DNA from: Hymenobacter edaphi
GTDB lineage: Bacteria; Bacteroidota; Bacteroidia; Cytophagales; Hymenobacteraceae
NCBI RefSeq assembly: GCF_003258365.1
Contig: NZ_QHKM01000006.1
Location: forward strand, 1 to 64,000
Reading direction: 5' to 3'
DNA: 64,000 nt
Program-made: the position numbers and the translations under genes
Part shown: piece by piece, positions 29,027 to 43,291 of the stretch
Layout of the letters: each line of letters begins with the position of its first letter
Position numbering within the stretch: position 1 is the stretch's first letter
The notes under the pieces: generated by a model
Database searches by the model: none
What the model was told of the DNA's origin: nothing
Seen by the model: the letters and a program-made list of their open reading frames with translations, nothing else

Positions 29027-29506
29027 CTAGGCCTGCCCGGCCAGCTCGCGACAGTAGGTAATAAAGTCGGTGTTGATGGGCTCCAGGCCGCTTTCGCGCA
29101 GGGTGGTGGCCACCTGGGCGCGGTGGTAGTTGGCGTGCACGCACACGTGGGTCAGGATGTCCGATACCTGGCTGTCGTAGCTGTTGCCCTGCGAGTTGGC
29201 GTAGCTGATCATGCGCGTCATTTCCGCATCGTCGGCCTGTTGCATGTATTGGTGCAGCGAGGGCGACGTCCGCTGGTGCAGCTTGTGCAGGCCGGCCAGG
29301 TCGTGCTCCTGCCACACCTTCACCGGGCTCTGGGTGCCGGTAAGGCGGGCCAGCCAGATGGCTTGCGCGTTGAGCAGGTGCGAGAACAGGCGCAGCGCCC
29401 GGGCCGGCAGCTCGGCGCCGGTGGCCACAATGCCGTCGAGGTGCGTGAGCAGCTTGGCGTTGGCCCACACGTTGTAGGCACCGAGCTTTTCGATGGTGTT
29501 GATCAT
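29027..29506 (-). CDS. DinB family metal-dependent helical protein
   Basis: A 159-residue DinB/YfiT-like protein, a four-helix bundle with a metal site. It starts MINTIEKLGAYNVWANAKLL and shows the family's first His at LRLFSHLLNAQAIW, and the second pair at VSDILTHVCVHANYHRAQVA (H-x3-H-x3-H form). Family members are often thiol-dependent (bacillithiol or mycothiol) S-transferases. The upstream codons to 29569 are repeat sequence, so I place the start at 29506. Confidence 0.82.
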   Translation of the reverse strand: MINTIEKLGAYNVWANAKLLTHLDGIVATGAELPARALRLFSHLLNAQAIWLARLTGTQSPVKVWQEHDLAGLHKLHQRTSPSLHQYMQQADDAEMTRMISYANSQGNSYDSQVSDILTHVCVHANYHRAQVATTLRESGLEPINTDFITYCRELAGQA

Positions 29507-29594
29507 ATGTGAAATAGTGAAATGGTGAGATGGTGAGTTTGATGTTCGGGAGGTCAGCACGACACTCACCAGTTCACCATCTCACCAGTTCACC
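29507..29594. repeat. GGTGA-type palindromic repeat, copy 1
   Basis: Left arm GTGAAATAGTGAAATGGTGA begins just upstream of the DinB start. The core TTTGATGTTC follows, then the right arm CACTCACCAGTTCACCATCT, whose end is one base from the stop codon (29596) of the next gene. It is related to 42822-42916. Confidence 0.75.
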
Positions 29595-29595
29595 G

Positions 29596-30066
29596 TCAGC
29601 GCGGGTCTTGCCAGATGAGTTGTTCGGCGGTTCGGTTTTTTTCAAAGTCGGCGCATTTCCCGTCGCCGCGGCCGGTGATGCCGCCGTCGGGGGCGCAGAG
29701 CACGTTGCCTTTGGCGTCGTAGAGCGTCGTGTACTGGTCGCAGCAGGGCGACGTCTCGTAGTACACCGTCTGGCCGCGGTACTGGTAGCTCAGAATGCGG
29801 ATGCGTGGGTTTTCGGCCTTGGCGTTCAGGTGGGCCTGAATCTTGTCGTCCAGCCACTTGGGCCGGTTGCGCTGGTCGAAGGGAATGTCCTTGACGCTGG
29901 TTTCGGGCACGGGCACATTGGTGGGCGTGGTCGTCGGGGCGGGCGTCGAGGGGTTGGCCGTGGCCCGCGGCTCCGAGGTATCGGTGGGCGTGGTCAGGTC
30001 GACATGGCGGGCGCAGGCACCGGTCCACAGCAGGGCGGCGCAGGCTAAAGCGGCAACGGAGCGCAT
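29596..30066 (-). CDS. Lipoprotein of unknown function with paired Cys
   Basis: A 156-residue protein whose start at 30066 gives MRSVAALACAALLWTGACA, a lipoprotein signal with the lipid Cys at about residue 18. A threonine/proline-rich linker follows (PSTPAPTTTPTNVPVPETS). The folded domain contains the segment YQYRGQTVYYETSPCCDQYT with an adjacent Cys pair, and ends in CADFEKNRTAEQLIW. This core pattern recalls a small Bacteroidota domain family (I believe DUF6970), function unknown. It sits in the outer membrane or periplasm. The downstream repeat follows its stop after one base. Confidence 0.7.
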   Translation of the reverse strand: MRSVAALACAALLWTGACARHVDLTTPTDTSEPRATANPSTPAPTTTPTNVPVPETSVKDIPFDQRNRPKWLDDKIQAHLNAKAENPRIRILSYQYRGQTVYYETSPCCDQYTTLYDAKGNVLCAPDGGITGRGDGKCADFEKNRTAEQLIWQDPR

Positions 30067-41204: not shown

Positions 41205-42761
41205 TTAGCCGGCGTGGGCGGCCAGCGCAGCCACGGCCGCCTGCAGGCGCTCCGCCGTTTCCTGCGGGCCCAGAATGCTCATAATGTGCATCAGGTCGGG
41301 GCCGGCGCCGGCGCCCGTGACGGCCACGCGCAGGGCCTGCAGCACCTGGCCCAGCTTCATGCCCTGGCCTTCGACCACCTGCGTGAGCAGGGCCTTAATG
41401 CCGTCGGGCGTGGTGTCCTGAGCAGTGGGCAGGGCTTCGGCAAAGGCCGTGAGGGCCGTGGCCACCTGGGCGTTCCACTTCTTGCTGATGATCTGCTCGT
41501 CGTAGCTGGCGGGGCGGTGGAAGAACAGCTGGGCTTCGCGGGCCAGATCGGCCGGGAAGGTGGCGCGCTCCTTCACCAGGCCGGCAATCTGCTCCAGCCG
41601 CTCGGTGCTCAGGTCCACGCCGATGCCCTGCTCGTTCAGTTCCGTCAGCAGGTACTGGGCCAGCTCCGCGTCGGGCTTGGCGCGCAGGTACTGCTCGTTG
41701 TACCAGCGCACCTTGTTCTGGTCGAAGCGGGCCGGCGACTTGCTCACGCGCTCAATCGAGAAGGCCTCGATCAACTCCTCCATCGAGAAGATTTCCTGCG
41801 TGGTGCCGGGGTTCCAGCCCAGGAAGGCGAGGAAGTTGATAAAGGCCTCGGGCAGGTAGCCCGACTCGCGGTAGCCGCTGCTCACGGTCGGCTCGCCGGT
41901 TTCGGCGTCCTTGCCGTGGAATTCCAGCGGGAATACCGGGAAGCCCAGCTTGTCGCCGTCGCGCTTCGAGAGCTTGCCGGTGCCGTCGGGCTTCAGGAGC
42001 AGGGGCAGGTGGGCAAACTGCGGCATGGTGCTTTCCCAGCCCAGGTAGCGGTACAGCAGCACGTGCAGCGGGGCCGAAGGCAGCCACTCCTCGCCGCGAA
42101 TCACGTGGGTAATTTCCATCAGGTGGTCGTCCACGATGTTGGCCAGGTGATAGGTCGGCATACCGTCCGACTTCATCAGCACCTTGTCATCGATGGAGGA
42201 CGAGTGCACCACCACCCAGCCGCGGATCAGGTCGTTGAAGCGCACCTCTTCCTTGCGCGGCACCTTGAGGCGGATGACGTAGGGCGCGCCGGCGTCGAGC
42301 AGCTGCTTTACCTCTTCCTCGGGCAGCGTCAGCGAGTTGCGCATCTGGGCGCGGGTGATGCTGTTGTACTGCGGGTTGGGCACCTTGGCGGCCGTCAGGC
42401 GGGCGCGCATGGCGTCCAGCTCCTCGGGCGTATCGAAGGCGTAGTAGGCGTAGCCGTCCTTGATCAGCTGGTCGGCATACTGGCGGTACATGGGTTTCCG
42501 CTCGCTCTGGCGGTAGGGCGCGTGGGGGCCGCCCTGCTCGATGCCCTCGTCAATCTCGATGCCGCACCAGCGCAGGGAGTCCATGATGTACTGCTCGGCG
42601 CCGGGCACGAAGCGGTTCTGGTCGGTGTCCTCGATGCGCAGCAGCATCTTGCCGCCCAGCTTGCGGGCCAGCAGGTAGTTGTAGAGCGCAGTGCGCACGC
42701 CGCCGATGTGCAGCGGCCCGGTCGGACTGGGCGCAAAACGCACCCGAACTTCTCTTTCCAT
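41205..42761 (-). CDS. gltX: Glutamyl-tRNA synthetase
   Basis: A 518-residue class I synthetase that charges tRNA-Glu. I start at MEREVRVRFAPSPTGPLHIG (42761), which holds the HIGH-like motif. The second motif is LSKRDGDKLG (KMSKS type). The C-terminal anticodon-binding domain is present. A TACCTTTG box on the minus strand (42813-42820) supports a leader of about 45 bases. The 18 upstream codons are rejected. Confidence 0.97.
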   Translation of the reverse strand: MEREVRVRFAPSPTGPLHIGGVRTALYNYLLARKLGGKMLLRIEDTDQNRFVPGAEQYIMDSLRWCGIEIDEGIEQGGPHAPYRQSERKPMYRQYADQLIKDGYAYYAFDTPEELDAMRARLTAAKVPNPQYNSITRAQMRNSLTLPEEEVKQLLDAGAPYVIRLKVPRKEEVRFNDLIRGWVVVHSSSIDDKVLMKSDGMPTYHLANIVDDHLMEITHVIRGEEWLPSAPLHVLLYRYLGWESTMPQFAHLPLLLKPDGTGKLSKRDGDKLGFPVFPLEFHGKDAETGEPTVSSGYRESGYLPEAFINFLAFLGWNPGTTQEIFSMEELIEAFSIERVSKSPARFDQNKVRWYNEQYLRAKPDAELAQYLLTELNEQGIGVDLSTERLEQIAGLVKERATFPADLAREAQLFFHRPASYDEQIISKKWNAQVATALTAFAEALPTAQDTTPDGIKALLTQVVEGQGMKLGQVLQALRVAVTGAGAGPDLMHIMSILGPQETAERLQAAVAALAAHAG

Positions 42762-42812
42762 ACGAAACGACAATTTCGGCCCCCGGCTAACTGCCCGGGC
42801 CCAAACGCGCCG

Positions 42813-42820
42813 CAAAGGTA
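42813..42820 (-). promoter_or_regulatory. gltX: -7 box for gltX
   Basis: CAAAGGTA on the plus strand reads TACCTTTG on the minus strand, a perfect TAnnTTTG, 52 bases before the start codon. Confidence 0.6.
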
Positions 42821-42821
42821 C

Positions 42822-42916
42822 GGAAAGGTGAGATGGTGAGGTGGTGAAATGGTGAGTTTTGATGTTCAGGCTACTAGAACTTCACTCACCACCTCACCAT
42901 TTCACTATTTCACCGC
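42822..42916. repeat. GGTGA-type palindromic repeat, copy 2
   Basis: Left arm GGTGAGATGGTGAGGTGGTG, core TTTTGATGTTC, right arm CTCACCACCTCACCATTTCA. The right arm runs into ridA: the last two codons and stop of ridA (GTG AAA TAG) lie inside the repeat unit. It matches copy 1 at 29507-29594. Confidence 0.75.
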
Positions 42917-43291
42917 AATGCAGGAAATTTCGACCAGCACGTCCTTGGGCAGGCGGCTGACTTCCACCGTTTCGCGGGCGGGGTAGGGGCCCGGGCCGAA
43001 GTAGGAGCCGTAGATTTCGTTGATGACGCCGAAGTGCCCGAGGTCTTTCACGAAGATGCTGCACTTCACCACGTCCTGCAGGGTGTAGCCGCCGGCGGCC
43101 AGCACGGCCTGCACGTTGCGCATCACCTGGTGCGTCTGGGCCTGCACGTCGCCCTCGCCGATGAGCTGCCCGCCCGAGGCGTCCAGCGCAATCTGGCCCG
43201 AGACGTAGATGGTGTTGCCGGCCTGCACGGCCTGGCTGTAGGGCCCGATGGGCGCGGGGGCCTCGGGCGAGTTGATGATGACGTTTGCCAT
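42905..43291 (-). CDS. ridA: RidA family reactive-intermediate deaminase
   Basis: A 128-residue member of RidA/YjgF, which hydrolyses reactive enamine/imine by-products such as 2-iminobutanoate. Conserved points: APAPIGPYSQAVQAGNTIYV, SGQIALDASGG, QTHQVMRNVQAVLAAGGYTL and, near the C-terminus, RETVEVSRLPKDVLVEISCI. The catalytic Arg is in PARETVEV. Length fits. The C-terminal residues V-K and the stop codon derive from the palindromic repeat. Confidence 0.93.
   Translation of the reverse strand: MANVIINSPEAPAPIGPYSQAVQAGNTIYVSGQIALDASGGQLIGEGDVQAQTHQVMRNVQAVLAAGGYTLQDVVKCSIFVKDLGHFGVINEIYGSYFGPGPYPARETVEVSRLPKDVLVEISCIAVK

Follow-up and report, generated by a model that had tools for sequence, protein, structure and literature searches.

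MITEs and ERIC-type elements are non-autonomous inverted repeats of about 100 nt that lie in transcribed gaps. The REP elements, including the GTAG- and CGTC-tagged superfamilies, are described in the passages of the source compared here as high-copy palindromic intergenic repeats of 20-40 nt that sit mainly in tandem or convergent gaps near gene 3' ends, with varying distances to the downstream ORFs; CGTC REPs are reported there without a dedicated transposase (PMC3733652). Direct repeats of the heptamer TAACTGA are described, again in the passages compared, from Beggiatoaceae, cyanobacteria and some Bacteroidetes (PMC4679880). The window analyzed here is a stretch of 64,000 nucleotides from Hymenobacter edaphi (genome G000; the sister genomes are labeled G001-G007), and it holds two copies of a palindromic repeat, elements A and B, with the following neighbors.

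29027..29506, minus strand: DinB-family protein gene (PF05163), ATG 1 nt from element B
29508..29594, no strand assigned: element B, a palindrome occupying the whole gap of two tandem genes
29596..30066, minus strand: DUF6970 protein gene (PF22311), stop codon TGA 1 nt from element B
41205..42761, minus strand: gltX, glutamate--tRNA ligase (TIGR00464, 502 bits), next downstream of ridA
42827..42914, no strand assigned: element A, a palindrome with three full and one partial GGTGARNT-type units per arm
42827-42856 and 42885-42914: arms of element A, around a core of 28 nt
42857..42885: core of element A, with inner motifs TTTGATGTTC on the left and AGAACTTCAC on the right
42905..43291, minus strand: ridA, Rid family (TIGR00004, 163.9 bits)

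Both elements are near-perfect palindromes of 87-88 nt in which arms of GGTGARNT octamers flank a TTTGATGTTC core, with inverted-repeat arms of 20-22 nt that are 86-95% complementary. In element A, AGAACTTCAC has one base in common with the right arm. The outer octamers of element A contain the last 10 nt of ridA with its stop codon, and the called start of gltX lies 65 nt from this element. Element B reaches to within 1 nt of both neighbors, namely the DUF6970 stop and the DinB-family ATG. When up to two mismatches were allowed, GGTGARRTGGTGAR matched 13 times in the window, and A and B account for 12 of these matches; shuffled controls gave a mean of 1.7 and at most 5, and 13 was reached in 0 of 100 shuffles. 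The observations of the earlier note at these two sites were thus confirmed: the GGTGA repeat at the ridA end and its second copy near 29507-29594 are real (13 matches against the shuffle mean of 1.7), the final GTG AAA TAG of ridA lies inside the outermost octamers of element A, the second copy ends one base from another gene's stop (that of DUF6970), and the core common to the two is TTTGATGTTC on the plus strand (42858-42867 in A, 29538-29547 in B). The palindromy of each copy and the closeness of B to the next ATG go beyond what that note described.

As RNA, element A is predicted to fold at -53.5 kcal/mol on the plus strand (z -8.8) and at -43.5 kcal/mol on the minus strand, which codes for both neighbors (z -7.0); element B gives -39.1 (z -4.1) and -41.6 kcal/mol (z -5.8), respectively. 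The elements are probably transcribed as hairpins. An Rfam search restricted to positions 42700-43050 returned nine weak miRNA-precursor matches, all far under their gathering scores, such as any long hairpin is expected to give, and copy A had no match in plasmid and phage collections (blastn, E 1e-5). G002 has an element at each of the two window sites, and so does G006, where the form is changed. In G000, G002 and G006 ridA is followed by gltX; the remaining five genomes of the genus have a different gene (MKEL...) there. Gene order is altered just downstream of ridA, which is the location of element A (42762-42905 compared with L032-L038).

The genome-wide count of copies that the earlier note had proposed gave 220 matches of the exact octamer pattern in G000, against 1 for the reversed control pattern. 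Two-armed elements were then defined in two batches: 844 kb of G000 and 480 kb of G002 yielded 28 (17 and 11, respectively), and further G000 stretches yielded 18, from 14 stretches and L168 that were picked for holding the pattern and from C40:64-184 kb, which was chosen regardless of it. The G000 sample is therefore 35 elements (17 + 18), of which 21 lie within 964 kb taken irrespective of the pattern, and this extrapolates to about 130 elements in the 6.04-Mb genome. Clusters with a single pattern match were dropped, and of 30 clusters from batch one and G002 the 28 with both arms caught were kept. The site at X 92137, palindromic by eye, was dropped since it matched in one arm only; some of the one-match clusters and of the eleven uncounted one-arm clusters of batch two may be degraded elements. 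Block coordinates X are G000:C11 minus 360000, and Y denotes the G002 block. Gene borders are codon-usage ORF calls rather than annotation; the stops of these calls are sure and the starts are guesses.

The sampled G000 elements are 76-188 nt long, most commonly 110 nt. Just inside the arms, the core carries a recurrent inner motif, TGAYGTTC / GAACRTCA: with up to two mismatches, TGACGTTC was found on the left in 25 of the 35 elements and GAACGTCA on the right in 23, compared to 1.0 expected in shuffled cores in each case, and these counts are possibly low given that core trimming left arm units on some elements. Three of the six convergent G000 elements have a terminator-like hairpin in the core by eye. 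Hairpins of this kind, GC-rich and separate from the octamer arms that enclose them, were seen by eye in the convergent elements C1 44095, C1 82685 and C2 76279 in G000 and Y 113981 in G002, and also in the core of the tandem element X 250603. Arms can be very long; L262:6284-6376, located in a divergent gap, carries about 12 units of GGTGAGGT and its opposite arm was not caught, and L261:6412-6599 has a 13-unit arm opposite a 4-unit arm, which suggests arm expansion by slippage.

Strong palindromes with other spellings, e.g., AATGGTTAAATGGCTGGTCGTTCTG... and GAATGTGCTTGAATGTGC..., occupy G000 gaps such as X 102238, C1 39496, C1 114457 and X 19637. Some of the other-spelling palindromes carry GTCGTTCT / AGAACGAC near the loop, which by eye resembles the octamer-family core, and they may be sister families. 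Long palindromes at Y 342190 and Y 104351 in G002 and at X 96692 in G000 have (GAA)CGTCAT(G/T)C..GAGC at their outer ends; these three look like CGTC-tagged REPs, by the naming of the REP paper, and resemble the GAACGTCA core motif.

Tandem gaps hold 28 of the 35 G000 elements, convergent gaps hold 6 and a divergent gap holds 1, compared to a background of 117 divergent gaps among the 565 of at least 60 nt in batch one (P 0.003). Neighboring stop codons are either contained in the element or at most 5 nt away in 38 of 40 cases in G000 (19/21 in batch one and 19/19 in batch two) and in 10 of 12 in G002; for two of the 17 batch-one elements the nearest stop is distant (494 and 17 nt). At the other end, the next start is 0-5 nt away in 19 of 28 tandem pairs in G000, with two batch-two start calls inside the element (-81 and -59) scored as not flush. 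Both edges were within 5 nt in 13 of 17 elements of G000 batch one, 6 of 11 of G002 and 11 of 18 of G000 batch two. Because batch two was mostly selected by pattern, the both-edge test was limited to batch one and G002. The chance that a single G000 element has both edges within 5 nt is 0.001 under uniform insertion and 0.03 with one insertion per gap, and the corresponding probabilities of the observed counts are 3e-36 and 4e-17 for G000 (13/17) and 2e-17 and 3e-9 for G002 (6/11).

The spelling of the octamer offers a simple account of the stop codons. Seventeen of the 40 stops in G000 lie inside the element, three of them by an overlap of only 1-2 nt. The 14 deeper overlaps use the TGA of units one, two or three at -5 (6), -13 (1) or -21 (3), and the remainder the TAG of AAATAG at -10 (2) or -18 (2). 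A TGA recurring every 8 bases visits all three frames in three units, and by this arithmetic a gene that enters an arm ends within about 21 nt. Whatever its frame, the gene meets a TGA after at most three units, and this is why the arms end genes.

Tandem gaps holding an element also close end to end when folded more often than shuffled ones do (6 of 13 versus 2.7 in G000, 6 of 9 versus 1.7 in G002). End-to-end closing was rejected as a rule for all tandem gaps, given that 55 non-element gaps closed versus 58.7 expected in G000 and 26 versus 34.5 in G002. For non-element convergent gaps the numbers were 27 versus 21.9 (G000) and 21 versus 12.4 (G002), and for divergent ones 20 versus 12.2 and 12 versus 7.3.

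We considered whether the element supplied the end of ridA itself. The earlier note had read the last codons and the stop of ridA as the product of the repeat, given that GTG AAA TAG falls within the repeat unit, and had asked for the RidA C termini of relatives to see whether the V-K-stop is new. It is not. The same-genus orthologues end in CIAVK in 8 of 8 genomes, with one extra residue in G003, G004 and G007, and the ridA site lacks the element in four of them (G001, G003, G004 and G007). In a wider set of 80 loci, mostly from named genomes, which overlaps the same-genus set (L061 and L097 were judged to be the same genomes as G004 and G001), 13 have an exact V-K-stop, and 10 of these 13 have no octamer repeat within 67 nt after the stop. 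The ridA of Pontibacter flavimaris (L095) uses the identical codons GTG AAA TAG without a repeat, and L083 has GTG AAA TAA without one. The remaining 67 loci have other ends, with 33 different final residue pairs across the set. The V-K ending is thus common near G000, variable at larger distance and not universal. Since orthologues without the element keep the V-K end, the ridA end is native and overlaps an arm of element A, and the RidA protein is unchanged; that the repeat made this end is extremely improbable. Copy B does not include the DUF6970 stop, and the same CGC TGA is present in G005, which has no octamer element there.

The broader claim of the earlier note, that repeats replace or extend coding ends, fails at ridA and holds elsewhere in G000, where the alignments indicate such ends for an aldehyde dehydrogenase, KdtA and a histidine kinase. 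The aldehyde dehydrogenase (PF00171; G000:C11:621081-622448) ends in NQKSVWMER with its stop in the first GGTGA of an element, while in G001, G002, G003, G004, G006 and G007 it reads NQKS(V/I)W followed by a tail of 13-14 residues and a gap of 83-386 nt; these six are the sisters with the gene beside the locus, where it was not shown in G005. In G000, M-E-R-stop and the element occupy the place of the lost tail and the old gap, the distal arm abuts the convergent gene's stop codon, and nothing was seen at this locus of the sister tail or of the 83-nt G002 gap, which by eye contains a different palindrome. KdtA (PF04413) ends in GELVNW in G000, AVNERMSK in G002, GEFVKL in G005 and G006 and GQWMSE in G003 and G007, with other, repeat-free ends in G004 and G001. 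The histidine kinase (PF06580), compared in six of the eight orthologues (all but G002 and G001), ends in GELVKW in G000 and in GEIVQW in G006; the ends in G003, G004, G005 and G007 differ from these. In G000, KdtA and the histidine kinase end within an element arm. A VimE-like protein (NF053580, 112.7 bits, far under the cut-off of 440) ends in ICEMVK in G000 and G002 and ICEMVKL in G006. In the other direction, one G002 protein ends in RMVSW inside an element, and its G000 counterpart, without the element, ends in RAY (by eye from the alignment).

The same gaps are not filled by the same octamer in every species. The ridA, kdtA and VimE-like gaps hold strong hairpins built from other octamers in several sisters, e.g., GTGAARTT in both G005 and G006 or GATGAGTR in G007. 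For ridA, the fold z is -5.0 in G000, -9.3 in G002, -7.7 in G006 and -7.1 in G005, compared to -0.6 to 1.1 in the element-free G001, G003, G004 and G007. At kdtA it is -8.0 in G000, -4.4 in G002, -4.8 in G006, -3.0 in G005, -9.3 in G007 and -3.8 in G003; the gap is without structure in G004 (z 1.3), and the genes overlap in G001. The VimE-like gap gives -5.3 to -7.6 in G000, G002, G006 and G007; the remaining genomes range from -2.6 to 1.1 (0.0 to 1.1 in G003, G004 and G005). Contrast is weak at dinB (-5.0 in G000, -5.6 in G002, -2.5 in G006 and -0.9 to -3.5 in the others), where a fixed 120-nt stretch was folded that in G007 covers another upstream gene. A single genus-wide spelling was rejected, as some species show higher counts of two alternative octamer patterns, in small numbers and partly in single arrays: GTGAARTTGTGAART occurs 22 times in G006, 7 in G005, 4 in G000 and 3 in G002, and GATGAGTRGATGAGT 10 times in G007 (6 in one array), 4 in G003 and 2 each in G000 and G002. 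None of the other spellings comes near the frequency that GGTGARRT has in G000, and a full octamer dialect for each species would be an extrapolation.

The elements could also be host features, that is, stop-proximal RNA structures (termination structures, transcript-end stabilizers or terminators) kept under selection while their sequence drifts by species. The recurrence of strong hairpins at ridA, kdtA and the VimE-like gene despite differing octamers is consistent with this, as are the location of the elements, which with 1 divergent case in 35 is nearly always 3' of a gene, and the terminator-like core hairpin that we noted by eye in three of the six convergent G000 elements. Stable post-stop structures are known across bacteria and linked to re-initiation control in the passages compared (PMC7518266), and the octamer elements, like the ribosome termination structures described there, place a stable mRNA structure directly after the stop codon; those structures are, however, presented as a general class and not as a repeat family. 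Several sisters have no structure at the ridA, kdtA and VimE-like sites, where it would be dispensable, the genes that carry the elements are of unrelated function, and a tandem element that fills its gap is no simple terminator unless a promoter lies inside or upstream. We regard selection on host hairpins as a rather unlikely origin.

Orthologous copies bear on a second alternative, in which each palindrome arises locally: octamer slippage, together with template switching from arm to arm (quasipalindrome correction), would overwrite neutral sequence until coding DNA is reached. Such a process would account for the flush borders, the lack of target duplication and very unequal arms (13 units versus 4 at L261). 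Between G000 and G002, 275 orthologous paired columns are unchanged, 19 have one-sided changes that keep the pair, 6 have two-sided changes, 15 are broken and 39 are gapped; in these alignments the palindromes are mostly kept, without strong covariation. The 6 two-sided changes are the compensatory changes that building in place predicts, but they are exceeded by the 15 broken pairs. Furthermore, unlinked loci of one genome share both the octamer and the core motif (25 and 23 of 35), so that copying or conversion between loci is needed, and we consider construction in place quite unlikely.

Copy number varies strongly between species. Across 150 genomes of the family, pattern counts range from 0 to 386 (the highest in G091, genus g5), with at least one match in 90 genomes, many genomes at 0-3, and counts of at least 20 only in the genus of the window and in g5. 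The reversed control was sometimes not silent (19 in G006, up to 8 + 6 in G091), perhaps through shifted readings of long arrays. In a 400-kb block aligned between G000 and G002, 7 of 12 sites are common, 2 are found in G000 only and 3 in G002 only. The G000-only site X 327960 has another palindrome in G002, as does the aldehyde dehydrogenase site, and a clean empty site was not seen.

We searched for what might move the elements. The Y1/RAYT transposase was rejected as the driver because Y1_Tnp counts do not track copy number in the eight genomes: PF01797 and GGTGARRT matches are 1 and 220 in G000, 2 and 0 in G001, 1 and 223 in G002, 4 and 0 in G003, 1 and 2 in G004, 0 and 50 in G005, 0 and 40 in G006, and 4 and 4 in G007. 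This search, which covered PF01797 (Y1_Tnp), found no trans-acting enzyme. Target-site duplications were absent; the longest flanking direct repeat averaged 1.49 nt versus 1.54 nt when permuted, a value reached in 120 of 200 permutations. Copy number and differences between species are therefore the sole grounds for inferring mobility.

In place, palindromy and the supply of stop codons the octamer elements are like REPs as described in the passages compared, and unlike them they measure 76-188 nt rather than 20-40 nt, have arms of tandem octamers, and in the majority of the tandem pairs sampled also extend to the start codon that follows (PMC3733652). In the wide sense of a high-copy palindrome in tandem and convergent gaps, the family is REP-like (28 tandem, 6 convergent and 1 divergent). 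GTAG stands at one element end in 2 of 35, so the tag of GTAG REPs and REPINs is not a feature of the family, nor does copy number follow the RAYT (Y1 transposase) as in REPINs; CGTC or GACG within 8 nt of an end was likewise found in 2 of 35, so the CGTC REP tag is not one either, and the CGTC-like motif (GAACRTCA) sits inside the elements. We conclude that the family works like REP and is a distinct variant, assigned to neither the GTAG nor the CGTC superfamily.

With TAACTGA arrays the elements share short tandem units, stops in three frames, a location in gaps, often a few nucleotides from start codons, some overlap with upstream gene ends and a patchy distribution (PMC4679880, passages compared). 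TAACTGA repeats are, however, direct heptamers without inverted arms or a predicted hairpin of their own, and the passages compared describe no shared core, which the octamer family has (PMC4679880); the unit here is 8 nt and stands in inverted arrays rather than direct 7-nt ones. Like MITEs and ERIC-type elements, the octamer elements are inverted repeats of comparable size in gaps. Unlike MITEs, they lack target-site duplications, no parent transposase was identified in the PF01797 search, and the DNA at the aldehyde dehydrogenase site is replaced rather than split. A literature search of open-access sources did not find a description of this family.

Taken together, we favor, with a probability of about 0.57, the reading that A and B are members of a high-copy, REP/ERIC-like palindromic repeat family at gene 3' ends that spreads between gene ends and replaces the prior DNA. 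The process that spreads the copies would be trans-acting or recombinational and would not duplicate the target, and the old gap might be replaced in one step or by later deletion. New copies would survive only where the neighboring genes still start and stop, and the mRNA hairpin right after the stop may be tolerated or may serve as a 3'-end or termination-insulating structure. A point against the favored reading concerns translation: with a strong hairpin 1-5 nt ahead of its start codon, the following gene should be translated less efficiently. In a further model, the elements would be gene-end-to-gene-end replacement elements in which a new copy swaps the whole interval, the mRNA stem joins the stop and start codons so that a terminating ribosome crosses the closed hairpin to the next gene, and each species uses its own octamer. 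All of the evidence for stop-start bridging is in the flush borders and in the end-to-end folding excess of element gaps, and we hold this model to be unlikely.

In summary, if the elements do exchange all of the DNA that separates two gene ends, they would be a recurrent natural source of new C termini and rewritten operon spacers and an example of a palindrome that spreads in a compact genome without breaking genes. An octamer with a stop in every frame is a simple reason for arms to accumulate at coding ends. For annotation, short C-terminal tails such as VKW and VNW in these genomes may be repeat derived.
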